From Syntrophus sp. (in: bacteria) (GTDB taxonomy: Bacteria > Desulfobacterota > Syntrophorhabdia > Syntrophorhabdales > Syntrophorhabdaceae): a stretch of DNA of 60,505 nucleotides. The notes under the pieces are model-generated. The model saw only the letters and a program-made list of their open reading frames with translations, made no database searches and had not been told where the DNA came from. Each line of letters opens with the position of its first letter. Position 1 is the stretch's first letter. A program made the position numbers and the translations under genes. Shown here one piece after another: positions 8,095 to 33,210 of the stretch. The stretch spans positions 1 to 60,505 of the forward strand of contig PNOF01000008.1 of the NCBI GenBank assembly GCA_013824645.1, given 5' to 3'.

Positions 8095-10845
8095 CTATCT
8101 GTCCAGTATCTCACGAACCTTCCAAAGAAGATCATCTAATAACAAGGGCTTGGCAATGAAGTCAAATCCCTTCTCCTCAATCCCTTTATCAAGGAAGATA
8201 TCTTTCGTGTACCCGCTGGTAAAGAGTACTTTAATATGAGGATCTATCCGGTGTATTTCCTCGTAGGCCTCCCATCCGTTCTTTTTCGGCATCACAGAGT
8301 CGATAACGATGAGATCTATATCCCGATATTCTTTGAATCTCTCTACCACATCTTCACCGTCTGTTGCTTCTCTTACGGTATAGCCATGTCCCTTAAGCGC
8401 TTCCCGCATAAAGTGTCTCACTTCCGCATCGTCTTCAGCGATAAGGATCGTTTCATTTCCCGTTGTGCTGGGGGTTGTCGTATCATGTTGCTGATCGACC
8501 ATCATCTTTACTGCGGGGAGATAGATATGAAAGGTGGTACCCTGGTTGAGGGTACTCTCCACGGTGATGTATCCGTTGTGCTGTTTTACGATACCATAGA
8601 CGGTAGCGAGACCCAGGCCCGTACCCTTCCCGACTTCTTTTGTGGTAAAGAAGGGGTCGAAGATCTTCTGTCGTGTTATCTCATCCATACCTGTTCCCGT
8701 ATCGGAGATGTTTATCTGTACATATTTCCCCGGTTCTCCAAAACCGTGGATCTTGATGAAGCTCTTGTTTATGGTGGTAATAGCTGTTTCTATGGTGAGT
8801 GTTCCTCCCTTCGGCATGGCATCTCTCGCATTGGCGACGAGATTAAAGAGGATCTGGTCCATTTGCGATTTATCGGCCATAACGATCGTATCATCATCGG
8901 CTAAGGATGTGCGAAACTCAATATTCTCGGTGAGGAGTCTCCTCAGTAGTTTCTCTGCCACTTTGACGGTGTGGTTCATATTAACGGGCACAAGGTTGAC
9001 AGGCTGCTGCCTGCTGAAGGCAAGTAAGCTCTGCGTAAGATCGGCTGCCTTCTGGGAAGCCAAGAGGACCTGGTCCACATATGACCGTAAGGAACTTGAT
9101 TTGTCCAGCTTCATCTTTAAGAGGGCGGCATACCCTGTCATGACAGTGAGAATATTGTTGAAGTCATGGGCGATACCCCCTGCCAGAGTGCCGATGGACT
9201 CCATCTTCTGGGACTGACGGAGCTGGTTCTCAAGCTGTCTTAATTCGGTAATGTTTTCACAGGTCATCAGGGAATCACCGGTAATAAGGACCGAAAAGAT
9301 GAAATGGACGATCTTCTGTGTTCCGTCCTTACAGGTAACAGTAAACACGTTCGGTTTACGTTCACCGGGTCTGTCATCCCTCAGGTCTTCTCTCCAGGCC
9401 GAGATTACCGTATGCCGGTATACGGCATTGGGATAGGCCTTTCTGCACCATGTCCTGCCGTCAGGGATATCAGGGAGCTCATATCCAAAGAGTTCGGTGA
9501 ACTTTCTGTTGATATAGGTAAAATGACCTTCCTTATTGATAAGGACCATACCGAAGGGGGCATTGTCGGAGAGGGTTTTGAGTTTTTCTCTTTCTCTGGT
9601 GATCTCTTCTTCGGCATGTTTGCGGGTAGTGATATCACGCTCGATAGCCAGAATGCATTTTTTGCCGGCGATGATTCCGAGCTTAAGGTTCACTTCGCTC
9701 CAGAAGAGGTGGCCGTCCTTGTGTCTACAATGCCACTCGAAGTGCTGGGGTTCTCCGGCTGCAGCCTTTCTCAACAGCTCCACGACTGTTTCCTGTGTAA
9801 AGGGATGAATACCCGAGCTAATATCTTCCACGCTCAGACCCATTGCTTCCCTGACCGGGTAGCCAAACATCTCCATTACATTATCGTTAACGTCGATCAA
9901 CTCCCCGGTCTCAATGTCATGGATCCAAATGGTATCGTTCACCGTGTTGAATATCTCGCGGTAAGTAACCTCTGAGAGTTTTAATGTCTCCTCGGCAAGT
10001 TTGCGCTCGGTGATATCCAGCATTGTGCCGATCACTGCAGGTCTTCCCTGGTAAACGGTGCGGGAGCTATACACCTCAGTGTTTTTGACTTGCTGGTCTT
10101 TTGTACGTATTCTAAACTCATAATGGAGGGATTCCACTTCGCCCGATAACCGTTTGTGCATGCTCTCTTCGACAATAGGCCAGTCTTCAGGGAAGATGGT
10201 ATCTTCTGCTGTCATTTTGTCAATTATTTCATCGATGGAGTATCCCAATACCTGGGCAAGTTTCAAATTAACGTATTTGAATATACCATCCTGAACAAGG
10301 TAAACACCAGCAACTGATTTCTCGGCAAGATCCCGAAACTTGCCCTCTGATTCCTTAAGCGCCTCCTCGGCCCGCTTGCGATCAGTGATGTCACGCAATA
10401 ATCCCCTTAGTCCAATCGGTTGTCCGTTATCATCAATAATCATACGCGCTGAAAGAGATGTTAGCCGTTCTTCTCCATCCTTTCTTTTCAAGAATACTTC
10501 ATAGTCATGGACATAACCTTTTTCTGAGAGTTTTACGTACAGTTTTTTTCTGTCACTTGAATCAACATAAAACTTGGTCGCTGGCTTGCCAATTACATCT
10601 TCTTCGTTCCAACCGGTTAAACGGTGTAGAGAAGGAGACACGATTGTAACAATTCCTTTAGAATCAGTCTCATAGTACAAATCTTCTATTGTCTCAAATA
10701 TTTCTTTAAATTTAGCTTCGCTTGTTCGCAGCGCCGCTTCCGCCTTCTTGTGCTTGGTTTCCGATTGTTCCAATTCTTTGATTCTCTGTTTTAGCAAGGA
10801 AATATCTTCGTTTAATTTTGGATTTGTCTTTGGTGGATCTTTCAC
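8095..10845 (-). CDS. Hybrid histidine kinase with four PAS domains and a receiver
   Basis: A 916-residue cytosolic sensor with no membrane segment. After a short coil come four PAS/PAC units at roughly 42-155, 165-282, 288-405 and 415-530. The dimerisation and phospho-acceptor helix follows ([18 protein letters not shown], His near 565), then an ATPase domain ([32 protein letters not shown]), and a C-terminal receiver with phospho-acceptor Asp in LIVIDSVMP and KP in FIAKPLLL. It is of the NtrB-like HDFNN type. The start is GTG 10845, three to seven bases after GGGAGGGC. Soluble location and multiple PAS domains suggest an internal redox or ligand signal; the ligand cannot be read from the sequence. 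Confidence 0.9.
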
Positions 10846-11141
10846 CTGCCCTCCCTACGGCGTACATGGTGCGGAAAATATCAAGACAGCAAGGATACTA
10901 TCATTTGACGAAAATATCAAACTGGTATCCACATGTATGTCGTTGCCTCCGCCAGTTATATGCAAGATCGACAGAGAAGCATGCGCTTCATTATTATTAT
11001 CGCATAATATCATTATGAGGTTTAGGAGAATGTTCAGTTTCAGGGTATTCATTGCTATATGAAAGTTGCTACGAAACTTAAAGGATTGCCTGTGTTTGTT
11101 CCAGGAAGCAAAGGGTGTGTTTTTAACATGCTCAGATTTTA
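10846..11141. other. Intergenic region without recognisable gene
   Basis: Nothing with homology is visible on either strand. The A/T-rich part near 10930-11060 probably carries the promoter of the hybrid kinase. Short reading frames here have no ribosome site or conserved motif. Confidence 0.4.
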
Positions 11142-11244
11142 TGGAGCGGGCAATGGTTCAACCCGCTTCTGGTTTTTGGAGCGGGCAACGTCTCAACCCG
11201 CTCTGGTTTATGGAGCGGGAAACGTCTCAACCCGCTCTGGTTTA
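11142..11244 (-). repeat. Three tandem tRNA-Gly 3'-end-like minihelix repeats
   Basis: Three 34-35 base units start (on the + strand) at 11142, 11177 and 11211, in register with the 3' end of the tRNA-Gly at 11245. Read on the tRNA strand, each unit can form a 7-bp stem GAGCGGG/CCCGCTC (6 bp in the outermost copy) and ends in CCA, keeping the acceptor strand and the start of the T arm but with a shortened loop. They would be co-transcribed just after the tRNA. They look like serial duplications of the tRNA end. Confidence 0.75.
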
Positions 11245-24770: not shown

Positions 24771-24946
24771 ATGATGATATAGTGAAAGCGATCCGTGAGA
24801 GTCGCTCCATCAGGGTTTTTACCGCGCAGATACCCGATAACAAAGCTATTGATGAAATACTTGAGGCCGCCCGATGGGCGCCATCAGGGCTCAATAATCA
24901 GCCCTGGAAATTTATGGTCCTTGGAGGAGCTTCTTATTACTTGTAG
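24771..24946 (+). pseudogene. 5' fragment of a nitroreductase-family gene
   Basis: The frame encodes VKAIRESRSIRVF, DNKAIDEILEAARWAPSGLNNQPWKFMVLGG, the FMN-binding N-terminus of nitroreductases. Homology stops after about 45 residues, where it runs into the convergent Memo-family gene, while a full protein has about 170-200. The natural start is also damaged: a GGAGG-led ATG at 24771 is one base out of frame with the coding part, and only GTG 24782 is in frame. It is a truncated, frameshifted relic. Confidence 0.7.
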
Positions 24947-26130
24947 AATACCCCACCGGCGAAGCTGACCGAAGAATTGCCGTCAGTCCACTGGTCGTAA
25001 CCGACAATAGTACAACTGCTTTTTTCGAGGAGCTTGAGTTGAAAAAAGATGGGTGTGAGGCCGCATATCCGTCTTGCATCGCCTTCTTCCTTGATGCTTT
25101 CAAAAAAACCTTTTGCATCAACTTTTTTCACTGATTCGAGGAGCATTTCATCGTGTGCTTTTGAACGGGCAAGCGTTGCCGTGTCGAGAGGGAAGTTGTC
25201 GCCGAACTGTGCGCCTATGTGGGCAAGGTCTGCCCCCGAAAGGATAATGAATGGTTCCCCGTAATCTCTGAGCACCTGCTTCAGATTCGCCACAAGCTCA
25301 TCAATTTCCCCGGCGTCTATACTTTTCTCTCCGGCAACATACTCATGCATGGAGCCGGTCAGGATGGAGAGTACCTCGAAGTCGTGCTGAACCATGAACT
25401 GAATGAGCGGAAGCTGTAATTCAATAGAATGTTCATTCCTGTGGGGCCACTCGTCGACATAGTTTTTCAGGACCTCATTGCCGAGGATCAGTCGGTCCAG
25501 TTCTTTCGCATGGTGGATGATTTCAATGGGTGTTTCAAGATCCTTACAGGATATGCTCAGAATCTGCTCCGTAGGGTAATGGCATGTACCAAATATGACA
25601 ATGAGAGGTTTACTGACATTCCTCAAATAAGGGTATGTTTTTTTGTAAACGTCTATACCCCGTGCATAATCTATATGGGGGGCAACGATGCCCGTTATCT
25701 CGCCATCTATTTTTCCATCTTTTTCGTTCCCCAGCATTTCATCGAGAAAAGCGAGGAGGTCCATCCTGTTTGCCGAATAACTCTTTCCAGCGAGAAAAGC
25801 CTTCCTTACGGGCGATCTTTCATATTCCTCTTTGAGCTTTGTATAATAATTTCGAAAATTTTCGCTGAAGAGAAGCAAATGGGAATCCATGGTATCGACC
25901 AGTTCCTGAATTTTTTCAATGTAGACCAGTTCACCGGTGGCCTCCATAAATGCAGTTTGTATATCCCGGAGTGTTCTTGTGCCGTCCATGAGAGAAATCA
26001 TGAAGGCTACTGCTCTTGATACCAGGAGGGCATTTTCTACGATCCCTTCCGTATCCCTGAGAAGAATGAGCTCCTGTCCATCCTGAATGACAGGGTGTGC
26101 TTCAATCCATCTTACCCGCGGGTTTTCCAT
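24937..26130 (-). CDS. AmmeMemoRadiSam system protein B (Memo family)
   Basis: A 397-residue protein. The first ~110 residues are a helical region related to PqqD-like or winged domains (LLVSRAVAFMISLMDGTRTL). From about 145 the Memo/extradiol-dioxygenase-like fold begins with GIVAPHIDYARG, followed by IFGTCHYP and HRNEHSIELQLPLIQF, and ends in YDQWTDGNSSVSFAGGVFY. The histidines that line the pocket are kept. The usual AMMECR1 and radical SAM partners are not in this window. Its stop overlaps the nitroreductase fragment by ten bases, on opposite strands. The exact reaction of this family is unclear. Confidence 0.85.
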   Translation of the reverse strand: MENPRVRWIEAHPVIQDGQELILLRDTEGIVENALLVSRAVAFMISLMDGTRTLRDIQTAFMEATGELVYIEKIQELVDTMDSHLLLFSENFRNYYTKLKEEYERSPVRKAFLAGKSYSANRMDLLAFLDEMLGNEKDGKIDGEITGIVAPHIDYARGIDVYKKTYPYLRNVSKPLIVIFGTCHYPTEQILSISCKDLETPIEIIHHAKELDRLILGNEVLKNYVDEWPHRNEHSIELQLPLIQFMVQHDFEVLSILTGSMHEYVAGEKSIDAGEIDELVANLKQVLRDYGEPFIILSGADLAHIGAQFGDNFPLDTATLARSKAHDEMLLESVKKVDAKGFFESIKEEGDARRICGLTPIFFQLKLLEKSSCTIVGYDQWTDGNSSVSFAGGVFYK

Positions 26131-26262: not shown

Positions 26263-28632
26263 TCACTGAAAGACTAATGTGATCGTCGCTGTTGTCCCGC
26301 TGGTATCAGCTACTGCAGGGAAGAGCAGCTTTTTGAAGGCATCCATGACGCACTGCGTAACGGTGATGTTTTTCACAGTATCGGAAGTCGTTTTGATGAT
26401 CTTAATCGTTCCGTCGGGATTGATGGTGAGGGCAAGTACCAGCTTACCTCCTGAAGCTATTCCCGTATAGCATGTTTCAATTTTTTCCATGTTCTTCTCA
26501 ATGATGCCGCGAAGGGTCTCTTTGGATAACCCGCCCGTTGCGGTTATTTCTCCGATGGTGACTGCAGTTGTTTTTTTCTTTTCGGCTACCCAGCCGCCAA
26601 CCACCCCACTCGACTCTGTTTTCGCCTTCAGGGCTGTATCATACTGCAGGTTACCCTGTCGGTACATTGTGGGTGATGGCGCTGCCAGGGCCATCGTCAT
26701 ACCGCTCGCTTGACCGATGGCATAATCGGAGACATCCTGTGGCAGAGGCAGAGGCTGATTCACTGTATCCGTTTTACCGTCCTTGTTACGGATTTCATTG
26801 TCGATGGCGACGAAGGAAGTGTATGCGGTAAGGAGATTATAGGTGAGCCCCAGTTGTGTTACTTCCTTTACACGTTTGTCATCGGAGCGCAGCTTATTAT
26901 AATCGGAAAGGATCGTGATTCTCTGTCGGGCCCAGAGGTATTTAAGGGACGCATTGGTCTTCTGGGGCTGTGTTGTGGAAACATTAACCGTCTCGGCATA
27001 TTTGCCATCGCCTGAGATGCCGGTGAGGGTTATCGTTCCCTGTGGTTTGCCACGCCATTTTCCAAAAACAATAACAGGCCGTTCCGCAAGCACATCGGGG
27101 ATGGAAATGGGCTCCACGTCGTAGGTGCTAAGACCGTTGAATTTTACCTTTACATTTGTTAAGACCGGTGACTGGATCATTTTCCGGAAGCGCTCTGCCT
27201 GAGCAGGGGCTTCGTCCGGTTTTGTGATGACAAAGGGTTCACCCATGCCGACATGGGCCATGCCTTCAATAATGTGACGGTTCACACTGGAGCCGATGCC
27301 GAAGGCAAACACGTTGGCATCGGCTAAATGACTACGGATAAAGTCAAAAGCCTCTTCTTCGACTGACACATAACCGTCTGTTGCGATGATGACGCTCCGG
27401 GAAAATCCTTCGGCCCGTTTCAGCGAGAGAGCGCGCTTCAACGCGGGCAGAAGCTCCGTGCCGCCGCCGCCTTTCTGACGGTCAATGACATTCATTGCCT
27501 TATCAATATTTTCAGTGTTGGCAGGGAGCGACTCTTCGGACATGAGCGATGATCCGCCGGAGAAAAGGAGGACATTGAATTTATCTGAAGGACGAAGACT
27601 TCCAATGAGATTCCTCAAAAGTTTCTTGGAAATTTCAAGGGGGAAACCATACATGGAACCCGAGACATCAACGATGAAGATGTATTCACGGCCCGGTATC
27701 CGGGCGTTGGTGATCTTTTTCGGAGGTTGCATCATGAGGAGAAAGAAGTTCTCTTTTTCTCCCTCGAAAAGCAGAAGTCCAGACTGTATTATATCGCCTG
27801 CAAGCCTGTAGTGGAGGATATAATCGCGATTCCCGCCGCCTGCATCAGATTTATCGAGAGTCACCCTTGCTGTGGAAGGACTCATGTAGGTGGCATTTAC
27901 TTTATGTGATGTGGAAGCAAGTTCCTTGATGGGCATGCCGGCTGCAAGGTTGACGGTAATGTCAAAGGAATAGGTCGGTTTCTCGTTCTGACGGAGATAG
28001 GGGTTTTTTACCCATTTTTCCGATGCGGAGGCAGTGGCTTCCTTCGAGTTGGAATAACGGGGGCCAACAACAGTGGGATAGGAGAATTCATAAACTTGGT
28101 CAGCGGGGAGGAGCAGTTCCGTGTATTTCAGTTCCACCTTGATTTCATCATTGGGCATAATGTTTGCAACATTCATCTGGAAGACATTGGGTCTCTGCTG
28201 TTCCAGGAGTGACGCGCTCTTTCCCTGGGCCCGTGCCTGCTCGTATTCCTTGCGAGCTTCATCACGCTTTTTAATCTTTGCCTCGATAACCCGCTTTCCG
28301 ATTACCATCTTCATGCCGTAGACAGCGGCCCGTGTCGATGCAGGAAAGATATAGATGGCCTCGATGGCTTTCTTTCCCTCATTTTTATAGACCTGTGTCA
28401 CCACAACGTCGGCGATGACCCCGGAGATATTCACGGCAGCAGAAGTTGCCTTCAACGGGAGCTGGTCAATGGCCGGGTCGTCACTTTTGACGAAAAAATA
28501 GGGAGAAAGGGTCTTGTCGGCCGATTCATCGGATATTTTCGGTTCGGTATGGGCCGGTGCCTGTAAACCTGGAACTATGAGAACGGAAAATATCATTGCA
28601 AATAGTGCCAGAAATTTTGTAACGCGCTTCAT
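26263..28632 (-). CDS. VIT and von Willebrand A domain protein with AgmX-like C-terminus
   Basis: A 789-residue exported protein with a signal peptide at 1-28 (FLALFAMIFSVLIVPG). A VIT domain occupies about 40-175 (VYKNEGKKAIEAIYIFPA). A vWA domain follows from about 305 with a complete MIDAS (DVSGSMYG and ATDGYV). The last ~90 residues resemble the AgmX/PglI or TonB-like C-terminal domain (ETCYTGI, LTINPDGTI, FKKLLFPA). The frame is open to 28743, but AGGAGG six bases before ATG 28632 and the signal peptide fix the start. An ECF-type promoter lies at 28674-28702. The family has roles in adhesion or envelope assembly; its exact role here is unknown. Confidence 0.88.
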   Translation of the reverse strand: MKRVTKFLALFAMIFSVLIVPGLQAPAHTEPKISDESADKTLSPYFFVKSDDPAIDQLPLKATSAAVNISGVIADVVVTQVYKNEGKKAIEAIYIFPASTRAAVYGMKMVIGKRVIEAKIKKRDEARKEYEQARAQGKSASLLEQQRPNVFQMNVANIMPNDEIKVELKYTELLLPADQVYEFSYPTVVGPRYSNSKEATASASEKWVKNPYLRQNEKPTYSFDITVNLAAGMPIKELASTSHKVNATYMSPSTARVTLDKSDAGGGNRDYILHYRLAGDIIQSGLLLFEGEKENFFLLMMQPPKKITNARIPGREYIFIVDVSGSMYGFPLEISKKLLRNLIGSLRPSDKFNVLLFSGGSSLMSEESLPANTENIDKAMNVIDRQKGGGGTELLPALKRALSLKRAEGFSRSVIIATDGYVSVEEEAFDFIRSHLADANVFAFGIGSSVNRHIIEGMAHVGMGEPFVITKPDEAPAQAERFRKMIQSPVLTNVKVKFNGLSTYDVEPISIPDVLAERPVIVFGKWRGKPQGTITLTGISGDGKYAETVNVSTTQPQKTNASLKYLWARQRITILSDYNKLRSDDKRVKEVTQLGLTYNLLTAYTSFVAIDNEIRNKDGKTDTVNQPLPLPQDVSDYAIGQASGMTMALAAPSPTMYRQGNLQYDTALKAKTESSGVVGGWVAEKKKTTAVTIGEITATGGLSKETLRGIIEKNMEKIETCYTGIASGGKLVLALTINPDGTIKIIKTTSDTVKNITVTQCVMDAFKKLLFPAVADTSGTTATITLVFQ

Positions 28633-28673
28633 AAATAACCTCCTCTGGGTCCTTGAATTTTTCATTCTCATAA

Positions 28674-28702
28674 TGAGACAGAAGATGTCCCGGAAAAGTT
28701 CC
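28674..28702 (-). promoter_or_regulatory. ECF-sigma-type promoter of the VIT/vWA gene
   Basis: On the minus strand GGAACTT (28696-28702), 16-base spacer, GTCTCA (28674-28679). It matches the sigma-E-type consensus GGAACTT-N16-GTCTAA in all but one position and would start transcription about 35 bases before ATG 28632. Confidence 0.7.
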
Positions 28703-28749
28703 CGGTTTCTTGAAAATATGAATGAAGATGATTTAGAGCTCATCCATAA

Positions 28750-30578: not shown

Positions 30579-31736
30579 TCATTGCCCCCTGTAGCCCATA
30601 AACATATCAGACAATCTTTTCTGCCGGTGTTTCGCGGTGATCGCATTGAGTCTTCTCTTCAGCCCCAGCCTTATCCTGGTCAGAGGGTCTTTCAGTTCTT
30701 CGCTGAAAAGCTTTTTTTCGATGGCATAAAAGCAGTAAGGGTCATTGTGCAGTCGCCCTGTTTTCATCAAAGACATCTCATTGCAGCCACCCTTACACTT
30801 TTTGAGATGTATGCAATTCCTGCAGTTTTCTCCTGTGTCTGAAACATCGAATGCTCTCGAATAGGAAAATGCCGTGTCACTGTTCCATATATCATATACA
30901 CTCATGGACCTTACATTACCTTCTATCGCAATATCTGTCATTGACAGGCAGCCTTTTATATTCCCGTTGCTCTGTATCCCCAGGACCGAAATGCCCGCAT
31001 GACATCCGGTCCACTCAGGGGCAAGGGATATATTATTCAGCATCATTGAATTGAAGCCGAGGTCATCCGCTCCAATGACAGGCATTTGTTTGACAGGATA
31101 TTTTTTTCTCGTGGAAGCGATAAACATCCCCACAGAATAGAAATCCTCTTCATCAAGAAGGAGTTCTTTCGGAAATCTCCTGCCTTCAGATCCTGCAATC
31201 TGTATCTGCCACGCGACATTCCTGCCCAGCAGCAGGTCTCTTATTGCAGGCAGTTCCATTAAATTCATCTTATGGACAGTAGTAATGACACTTACCGGCA
31301 GCCCCTCTTTGAGCGCAATATTCATAAAATCGCACGTTTTATCGAAAGCGCCTTTACGGTTGCGTATTTGATCGTGGAGTTCAGGCTTTGAGGCATCGAG
31401 ACTTACCGCAACAGTTCTCGGATTCAATGATCTGAGTTTTGAAAAAGTCTCTTGGTCATAAACAGTTCCGTTAGTTATTACAGTAAGTTCCATATCGAGA
31501 TTCCCGATCAGCGCTGCTATATGCCAGAAGTCTTTCCGTAATAAAGGCTCCCCTCCCATTAATGTAATGCCGAGACATCCGGTTTTTTTCAGGTCATGGC
31601 AGAGTTTTTCGGCTTCAGAAGTCGTCAGCTCATCGCCTCTTTTCCTGCCGGCGCTTGATCCGCAATGTATGCAGTTAAGATTGCAGTCAAGGGTAAATTC
31701 CCAAACAACGTTTACTAAATTGTATTTATTTTGCAT
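30579..31736 (-). CDS. Radical SAM/SPASM enzyme coupled to a Kunitz-type protein
   Basis: A 385-residue enzyme. The radical SAM cluster motif is CNLNCIHC near residue 18, followed by MGGEPLLRKDF. The C-terminal SPASM region has GC..GI...GNIKGCLSM, EGNVRSMSVYDIW, then CRNCIHLKKCKGGCNE, enough cysteines for auxiliary 4Fe-4S clusters. Such proteins often modify peptides (cyclophane, thioether or epimer formation) but some act on proteins or cofactors. Its ATG overlaps the end of the Kunitz gene (ATGCAAAATAA, 11 bases), which strongly links the two. No peptidase or transporter is next to it. That the Kunitz protein is its substrate is inference. Confidence 0.88.
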   Translation of the reverse strand: MQNKYNLVNVVWEFTLDCNLNCIHCGSSAGRKRGDELTTSEAEKLCHDLKKTGCLGITLMGGEPLLRKDFWHIAALIGNLDMELTVITNGTVYDQETFSKLRSLNPRTVAVSLDASKPELHDQIRNRKGAFDKTCDFMNIALKEGLPVSVITTVHKMNLMELPAIRDLLLGRNVAWQIQIAGSEGRRFPKELLLDEEDFYSVGMFIASTRKKYPVKQMPVIGADDLGFNSMMLNNISLAPEWTGCHAGISVLGIQSNGNIKGCLSMTDIAIEGNVRSMSVYDIWNSDTAFSYSRAFDVSDTGENCRNCIHLKKCKGGCNEMSLMKTGRLHNDPYCFYAIEKKLFSEELKDPLTRIRLGLKRRLNAITAKHRQKRLSDMFMGYRGQ

Positions 31737-32154
31737 TCCTGAAATCTCTAATGCTTACACCGCCATACTTTGAAACGGGGTATGTGGGCCTCTCAGTGTT
31801 TTGACCAATGCATGCCATAGTGCACTCCTCTTGAGTATCAAATGGCACCACACCGTCACAACCGCCATAGATGAATGTCTTGCATGTGTTTGTTCCGGCA
31901 TCAAAATAGTATTTGTCAAAAATAGCTTTGCATGAGCCGCTTTCAGGCTTTAGTCCGCATCTTTCCGACAACGGGTTTGCCTTGCCTTTTTCGGGCTGGG
32001 GATTTACCTCGGCCGCATTGGAGTTGCTCCATCCGGCAGCAAATACCGAAAGGGCCAGGGCTAAAAGACCTGAGAGCCCAATCTTTGTAAACTTCTGTGC
32101 ATCCTCTTTTGTGAGGTTTGTTTTTTCTCCCAGCTTTGCTATTTTTTTATTCAT
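31726..32154 (-). CDS. Exported Kunitz/BPTI-type protein
   Basis: A 142-residue protein. Residues 1-48 form a long-headed signal or leader (MNKKIAKLGEKTNLTKEDAQ, then hydrophobic GLSGLLALALSVFAAG, cleavage near NAA-EV). The Kunitz domain follows with six cysteines at spacings +9, +16, +8, +12 and +4; bovine trypsin inhibitor has +9, +16, +8, +13 and +4. Typical YYFDAGTNTC, FIYGGC and TQEECTMAC are present. The residue after the second cysteine (inhibitor P1) is Lys, predicting trypsin-like targets. A 24-residue tail ends KYGGVSIRDFRNAK. Kunitz domains are rare in bacteria. It is translationally coupled to the radical SAM gene. Strong AAAGGAGG ribosome site. Confidence 0.85.
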   Translation of the reverse strand: MNKKIAKLGEKTNLTKEDAQKFTKIGLSGLLALALSVFAAGWSNSNAAEVNPQPEKGKANPLSERCGLKPESGSCKAIFDKYYFDAGTNTCKTFIYGGCDGVVPFDTQEECTMACIGQNTERPTYPVSKYGGVSIRDFRNAK

Positions 32155-32250: not shown

Positions 32251-33210
32251 TTAAGGTCCAACCTCTTCTTTTACGTTTCCCGTTTGATCACTAAAGTATG
32301 TTTTATCACATCCTGGATGTTTTGCTGATATTAATAAACTATTTACAGTACCTTGAACATGGACTAAAACCTTATCGGACTTTTGAAAACCATGGTCTTT
32401 TAAATCATCAACGTTATTAATCTCTCCCTTGGGGTGATCCAAAAAGTAAGCCTGAGATGCTGTATAGGCATTTTGTGACTCCGATTTAGCTGAAATACAG
32501 TACCCCCTGGTCTTCATTGCGTTGAACTGTGGAATTGCAATAGCCGCAAGAATGCCAACAACTGCTATCAACAATATTGGCGCTACAATTACGACAGCGT
32601 TATTTACACCGCCCTGATGAGCAATGTTTACTGCTCTTTGTATGTCAGAGGAAGAGGGGGCCAGCTTAATTTGAAGAAGCTTTTTCTTGGTATGTTTATA
32701 ATAGATATAGTTACCTGTAATGCCAAAAAATATCATAAGAGGAAAGGTAACCAGGGGTATAATCGAAAGAACGAAAACAAGCAATGCCCAAAGGTAAAGC
32801 TTTCTATATAGCATCCAGAAGAAAGGCACAAAAAATGCCGGCCAATGCCATGTTGCCGAAAAACTATCAGTTCCATCTATGTTAAATTTCTTAAATTTTG
32901 TTAAATATTTATCCGCATTTCCCCCAATAAAACTTGTATAGTCTTGCTCCGTTATTGCTGAAGACACAGGGGCGCCTTGTATGTCACTCTGAACATTTGG
33001 TAATTTCTCCCCACAATTCCGGCAAAAGGAACTGCCTTCCGCTATTTCTTTGCCACACTTTGTGCAATAAGACATAATTACCTCCTTGAGTTGTTTTAAA
33101 CGACGTTTTGACCGTGAGTTAGAGATAAATATGATGAGTATAATAATTCCAAGAGGAATCCCCAACACTACCGTCATTACTATTAATTCCGGCAACCCAA
33201 TTCCAAACAT
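32251..33210 (-). CDS. Zinc-ribbon membrane protein with internal pilin-like segment
   Basis: The frame runs from ATG 33210 (319 residues), but a very strong AAGGAGGT sits before an internal ATG at 33075 whose product (274 residues) begins MSYCTKCGKEI, the usual start of zinc-ribbon proteins. The 45 upstream codons encode MFGIGLPELIVM plus a helix, like the N-terminus of small TatA-like proteins. After the ribbon (CTKC...CRNC) come three hydrophobic segments around a WPAFFVPFFWMLYRK motif of DUF2628-like proteins, then AILAAIAIPQF-type sequence (VVGILAAIAIPQFNAMKTRG), the helix of type IV pilins, and a periplasmic tail with one C...C pair. Possibly two products from one frame. Function unknown. 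Confidence 0.7.
   Translation of the reverse strand: MFGIGLPELIVMTVVLGIPLGIIILIIFISNSRSKRRLKQLKEVIMSYCTKCGKEIAEGSSFCRNCGEKLPNVQSDIQGAPVSSAITEQDYTSFIGGNADKYLTKFKKFNIDGTDSFSATWHWPAFFVPFFWMLYRKLYLWALLVFVLSIIPLVTFPLMIFFGITGNYIYYKHTKKKLLQIKLAPSSSDIQRAVNIAHQGGVNNAVVIVAPILLIAVVGILAAIAIPQFNAMKTRGYCISAKSESQNAYTASQAYFLDHPKGEINNVDDLKDHGFQKSDKVLVHVQGTVNSLLISAKHPGCDKTYFSDQTGNVKEEVGP

Follow-up and report, generated by a model that had tools for sequence, protein, structure and literature searches.

A Kunitz domain flanked by leader and tail in a precursor putatively modified by a radical SAM/SPASM enzyme

Why does a bacterial gene for a Kunitz-type protein overlap a gene for a radical SAM/SPASM enzyme? 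The two genes lie together in the window (the whole 60,505-nucleotide stretch of DNA analysed here), and the overlap claimed for them in a sequence-only reading of this DNA proves real, with 11 bases shared at 31726-31736. The features that bear on the question are as follows.

30579..31736, minus strand: radical SAM/SPASM peptide maturase, a 385 aa open reading frame (ORF) assigned from its Pfam domains
31726..32154, minus strand: Kunitz-domain precursor protein, the candidate substrate, a 142 aa ORF with a strong Shine-Dalgarno sequence, AAAGGAGGATGGG, read by eye directly before its ATG
31726..31736, minus strand: overlap of the Kunitz and radical SAM genes, ATGCAAAATAA, from the ORF coordinates
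32035..32145, minus strand: conserved leader and signal/membrane helix, residues 4-40, KIAKLGEKTNLTKEDAQKFTKIGLSGLLALALSVFAA, from the Elusimicrobial leader HMM
31810..31962, minus strand: Kunitz/BPTI domain, residues 65-115, with P1 Lys76, from the PF00014 match and alignment
31741..31788, minus strand: conserved tail, residues 123-138, PTYPVSKYGGVSIRDF, from the archaeal tail HMM and a DNA pattern
31762..31770, minus strand: proposed modification site Lys129-Tyr130-Gly131 (X-Tyr-Gly); the Tyr is invariant in relatives' tails and XYG is the PlpX motif (PMC10533398)

Residues 65-115 of the Kunitz protein match PF00014 well above its gathering cut-off (1e-13; 51.7 bits against 21), and alignment identifies the Kunitz cysteines as residues 66, 75, 91, 99, 111 and 115. 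Their spacing is that of BPTI but for a single residue missing between the fourth and the fifth; the near-BPTI spacing and P1 lysine (Lys76) of the sequence-only reading are thus both borne out, and the tail is longer than the 24 residues given there, with 27 residues following Cys115. As claimed, such domains are also rare among the bacterial genomes searched, being carried by 7 of 60 related ones (a count that takes in the host), 1 of 295 from Elusimicrobiota and 0 of 14 control genomes. The window protein has the PF00014 domain, six cysteines and P1 lysine of the Kunitz/BPTI inhibitors, but differs from them in that the domain sits between a RiPP-type leader and tail. An AlphaFold2 model of the protein, made with no alignment, was too poor for use (mean pLDDT 45), and scans for promoters and terminators gave signal close to chance level.

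The enzyme combines PF04055 (radical SAM) with PF13186 (SPASM) and has the CxxxCxxC motif and seven SPASM cysteines by which maturases are recognised, next to a precursor gene with conserved leader and core. Both the radical SAM cysteines (18, 22 and 25) and those of the SPASM domain (245, 263, 305, 308, 314, 318 and 335) are invariant across 16 aligned sequences. The best folds for its model (mean pLDDT 85) are PqqE, SkfB and SuiB, all peptide maturases, a likeness that establishes the fold but cannot tell the reactions apart. Relatives occur in 30 of 295 Elusimicrobiota genomes (53-62% identity) and 23 of 390 genomes of Thermoplasmatota archaea (44-52%); in the host's phylum a relative at E < 1e-60 is present in one other of 297 genomes, at 36% identity. 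By these comparisons the enzyme is foreign to the host's phylum. In a tree of 83 enzymes it groups inside the Elusimicrobial clade (support 0.96), which itself falls within the archaeal enzymes, and these FastTree support values suggest that the gene was gained horizontally. The sister clade (support 0.99) includes representatives of the nif11_3 and GDL families, together with an Agathobacter member whose position within it is weakly supported (0.29).

What accompanies these related enzymes? Small precursor genes often lie near them in both Elusimicrobiota and Thermoplasmatota, and none of the precursors read carries a Kunitz domain; the window protein is the single known Kunitz-carrying precursor of this leader/tail type. 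In Thermoplasmatota they are tandem peptides of ∼52-126 aa, with a leader L-G-x-x-L-G-L-x-x-x-D-I and the end X-Y-G-T-[IV]-S-I-[KN]-D-F. The Elusimicrobial precursor, seen in some but not all of the loci fetched, many of which are short, is a lipoprotein-like protein of ∼100-140 aa ending in [RK]-Y-[YF]-T-V-S-x-x-D-F, and usually lies one gene past the enzyme, after a SAM methyltransferase. Such a methyltransferase accompanies the enzyme in the archaea as well.

The Kunitz protein has both ends in common with these precursors. Among the 1363 ORFs of the window, an HMM of 18 Elusimicrobial leaders finds it at E=4.3e-11 (next ORF 0.79) and an HMM of 31 archaeal tails at E=2.5e-4 (next ORF 0.17), so that each match stems from a different lineage; neither the archaeal leader HMM alone nor the Elusimicrobial tail HMM (0.89) matches the window significantly. 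The tail consensus matched is X-Y-G-[TG]-[VI]-S-I-x-D-F. A DNA pattern for the tail has a single occurrence in the host genome of 2.6 Mb (reversed control 0) and seven in the three archaeal genomes with matches (reversed control none). Leader and tail are thus homologous to those of Kunitz-free precursors, and are therefore the old parts of the protein, with the Kunitz domain inserted between them. The long leader that had seemed unusual is real and is conserved in the Elusimicrobial precursors also. It had been proposed as a check that the tail should be conserved and the leader vary; the tail is indeed conserved, but so is the leader, and it is the middle that varies. Because Kunitz-free precursors encoded close to orthologous enzymes in two further phyla have either the leader or the tail in common with it, the earlier proposal that the radical SAM enzyme takes the Kunitz protein as its substrate, acting on the tail, is strengthened, and we regard this link as very probable.

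The inserted domain seems to have a more local source. Six genomes, all from a single genus in the family of the host, encode proteins of ∼350 aa with a C-terminal Kunitz domain. The window domain is 41-54% identical to these ankyrin-Kunitz proteins, compared with 38% to BPTI, and has the one-residue deletion in common with them. By this measure the closest relatives found for it are Kunitz domains from the bacterial family to which the host belongs, and the likeliest history is that a local Kunitz domain recombined with a foreign precursor/enzyme pair. The ∼350 aa proteins (L003-L008) are ankyrin-like where read, and their P1 residue is Met or Lys. A mobile or viral origin was rejected, since no relatives were found on viral contigs and no Kunitz relative on plasmids. 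That the contig is a contaminant is unlikely, because the gene at 32251-33210, which neighbours the pair, is 71% identical to a relative from a different genus of the host's family; no Kunitz gene follows that relative in the 0.3 kb of following DNA examined.

What might the enzyme do to the tail? Our best explanation, with a probability of about 0.5 for the whole, is that a chimeric Kunitz precursor is modified at its tail by a splicease-like reaction and then exported. The chimera, comprising the leader and signal helix of the family, the inserted Kunitz domain and the tail of the family, would be produced together with the enzyme, which would modify the tail around Lys129-Tyr130-Gly131 in the cytoplasm. 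Tyramine (-135 Da) would be excised from Tyr130 and the chain rejoined, with Lys129 converted to alpha-keto-beta-homolysine; this predicted mass change takes the place of the -2 Da expected earlier. Sec would export the protein and signal peptidase would take off leader and signal together: probably signal peptidase II in Elusimicrobiota, where the precursors have a lipobox-like Cys, and signal peptidase I in the window host, where this Cys is missing. The released product would comprise the Kunitz domain and its modified tail, in which the Lys129 ketoamide could trap a trypsin-like protease, the class that P1 Lys76 would bind. That domain shuffling has in this way set an animal-type inhibitor fold within a RiPP-type precursor and produced a two-warhead inhibitor, with an exported P1-Lys Kunitz domain and a Lys-derived alpha-ketoamide on a flexible tail directed against the same protease class, is a speculative extension that we think rather unlikely.

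The precedent is PlpX, which cuts tyramine out at X-Tyr-Gly and can do the same in unrelated proteins furnished with a ten-residue tag (PMC10533398; PMC11002830). Protease inhibition is the activity of the spliceotide products (PMC11117315). Splicease-like chemistry seems the likeliest for the window enzyme, at a little short of even odds, because the sister clade includes splicease-type families with X-Tyr-Gly precursors. Examples of the motif in that clade are IALYGLPPELF and RPYGPAM; GDL peptides carry PYG, LYG or MYM, and a peptide ending IAYGDGGGGGVGIA adjoins the one enzyme relative in the host's own phylum. The enzyme of a Nostoc cluster is accompanied by a 71-aa partner and by a Nif11 precursor that ends in SIALYGLPPELF, an arrangement that supports our assumption that IPR026482 is the same family as TIGR04103. 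The published count of 939 predicted spliceases, as cited in PMC10533398, could already contain the clade of the window enzyme.

The window system shares with PlpX-type spliceases (PlpXY of Pleurocapsa; nif11-class maturase 3) a SPASM radical SAM enzyme, an X-Tyr-Gly near the precursor C-terminus and a sister-clade relationship. It departs from them in that the enzyme is ∼29% identical to the Nostoc member, the leader is not Nif11, no PlpY-like small RRE partner is seen directly beside the two genes, and the Elusimicrobial precursors lack Gly after Tyr. The two best NCBIfam matches of the enzyme, TIGR03913 (GDL peptides; 198.4 bits) and TIGR04103 (nif11 class 3; 161.6 bits), fall far under their curated cut-offs of 591.75 and 725. 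These low scores and the absence of a PlpY directly beside the two genes count against our best explanation, as do the single Kunitz example and the lack of any methyltransferase partner found in a host genome of 88% completeness. The GDL (DUF1843) system of TIGR03913, although the best NCBIfam match and similar in its tandem small peptides with Y-G/M/A and, in one cluster, a SAM methyltransferase, differs in that its enzymes are ∼30-33% identical to that of the window and its motif is near the N-terminus, with no S-I-x-D-F tail and no signal helix. Neither the window protein nor the tested precursors from archaea and Elusimicrobiota match PF08898 (DUF1843).

The conservation of individual tail residues bears most directly on the choice of reaction. 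The core Tyr is invariant in 31 of 31 archaeal and 21 of 21 Elusimicrobial tails, Ser at +4 and Asp at +7 from it are nearly so, and Phe at +8 is present in most. Gly follows the Tyr in every archaeal tail, an invariance partly built in by the Y-G search pattern with which these tails were gathered, and the residue before Tyr-Gly varies; a variable X with invariant Tyr-Gly is what a splicease site would require, and the window tail has KYG. In contrast, none of the Elusimicrobial tails, which were gathered by profile, has Gly here, the residue being Tyr, Phe or Ala. The family can thus do without Gly, and its reaction may be other than that of PlpX. The splicease reading is coherent but unproven, and is weakened most by this loss of Gly.

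A serious competitor, somewhat less probable than splicing, is that the enzyme modifies the conserved tail in a different way, at the Tyr or within S-I-x-D-F, with the tyramine kept: a C-C or ether crosslink, epimerisation or decarboxylation. Conservation of Tyr, Ser and Asp-Phe goes beyond the needs of an X-Y-G site alone, and the Tyr or Phe in place of Gly in Elusimicrobiota, the many reactions catalysed by SPASM enzymes and the presence of the crosslinkers PqqE and SuiB among the nearest solved folds all point the same way, but the X-Y-G in the precursors of phylogenetic neighbours and the freedom of X in archaea argue for splicing. It is improbable that leader and tail are inherited remnants, with the enzyme idle on the Kunitz protein or acting elsewhere in the genome. 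One Elusimicrobial precursor (L103:4980-5270), adjoining an enzyme among those closest to the window's, does keep an intact leader with no recognisable tail, and the failure to find a methyltransferase would fit; yet in the window neither the tail nor any catalytic or SPASM cysteine has been lost, the two genes overlap, and the tail pattern is found nowhere else in the host genome. Least probable of all, and very much so, is the cyclophane at Phe138-Arg139-Asn140 proposed in the sequence-only reading. Cyclophane-forming radical SAM systems include the XyeB and GrrM types, which likewise pair a SPASM enzyme with a tail bearing an aromatic residue, and FRN is indeed present in the window tail. 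The Asn of their aromatic-x-Asn motif is not conserved in this family, however, being absent two places after Phe in all 31 archaeal and in 18 of 21 Elusimicrobial tails (present in 3); the Phe is kept as part of Asp-Phe and is the last residue of many archaeal tails. A cyclophane there is therefore unsupported. A thioether in the tail, of sactipeptide or ranthipeptide type, was rejected as there is no Cys beyond residue 115.

Whichever reaction applies, these comparisons define a precursor/maturase family that spans two bacterial phyla and archaea, has a clear predicted site and is unnamed in any curated library searched, and they indicate that such a precursor can accommodate an inserted folded domain of disulfide type, with the leader on one side and the modified tail on the other. 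If the splicease-like chemistry is true, a single natural protein would join two kinds of protease inhibitor, and its tail would serve as a compact tag by which ketoamides are introduced into exported proteins. Our literature search found no paper joining Kunitz domains, radical SAM enzymes and RiPPs, or Thermoplasmata and radical SAM RiPPs. A single paper, on Antarctic soil metagenomes, reportedly names Elusimicrobia, RiPPs and radical SAM together.

Several observations extend beyond the window pair. Archaeal precursors at L043 and L070 have two or three Y-K-A-G-T-X-Y-G-T units, which suggests several modified sites per chain, and those at L061-L064, L018 and L019, which measure ∼120-180 aa, contain membrane helices and have a Y-G-[VA]-[YF]-S tail, apparently form a separate branch of the family. 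DUF1843 (GDL) peptides in the clusters read at L118, L120, L122 and L125 have X-Y-[GMA] near the N-terminus and may also be splicease-type substrates. In Tropicibacter a radical SAM gene of the nif11_3/GDL clade overlaps a trypsin-like peptidase gene (L121:2692-5500). Within the window, 1.8 kb from the enzyme gene, 26263-28743 (minus strand) encodes a VIT and VWA protein (PF08487, PF00092) with the layout of inter-alpha-trypsin inhibitor heavy chains; the animal partner of those chains, bikunin, is a Kunitz protein, and the proximity here is probably coincidence. The gene at 24937-26130 (minus strand) encodes a Memo-like protein (PF01875) whose first 110 residues have no domain assignment, and at the archaeal locus L037 a Memo-like protein (10260-11156, read by eye) lies two genes from the precursors.
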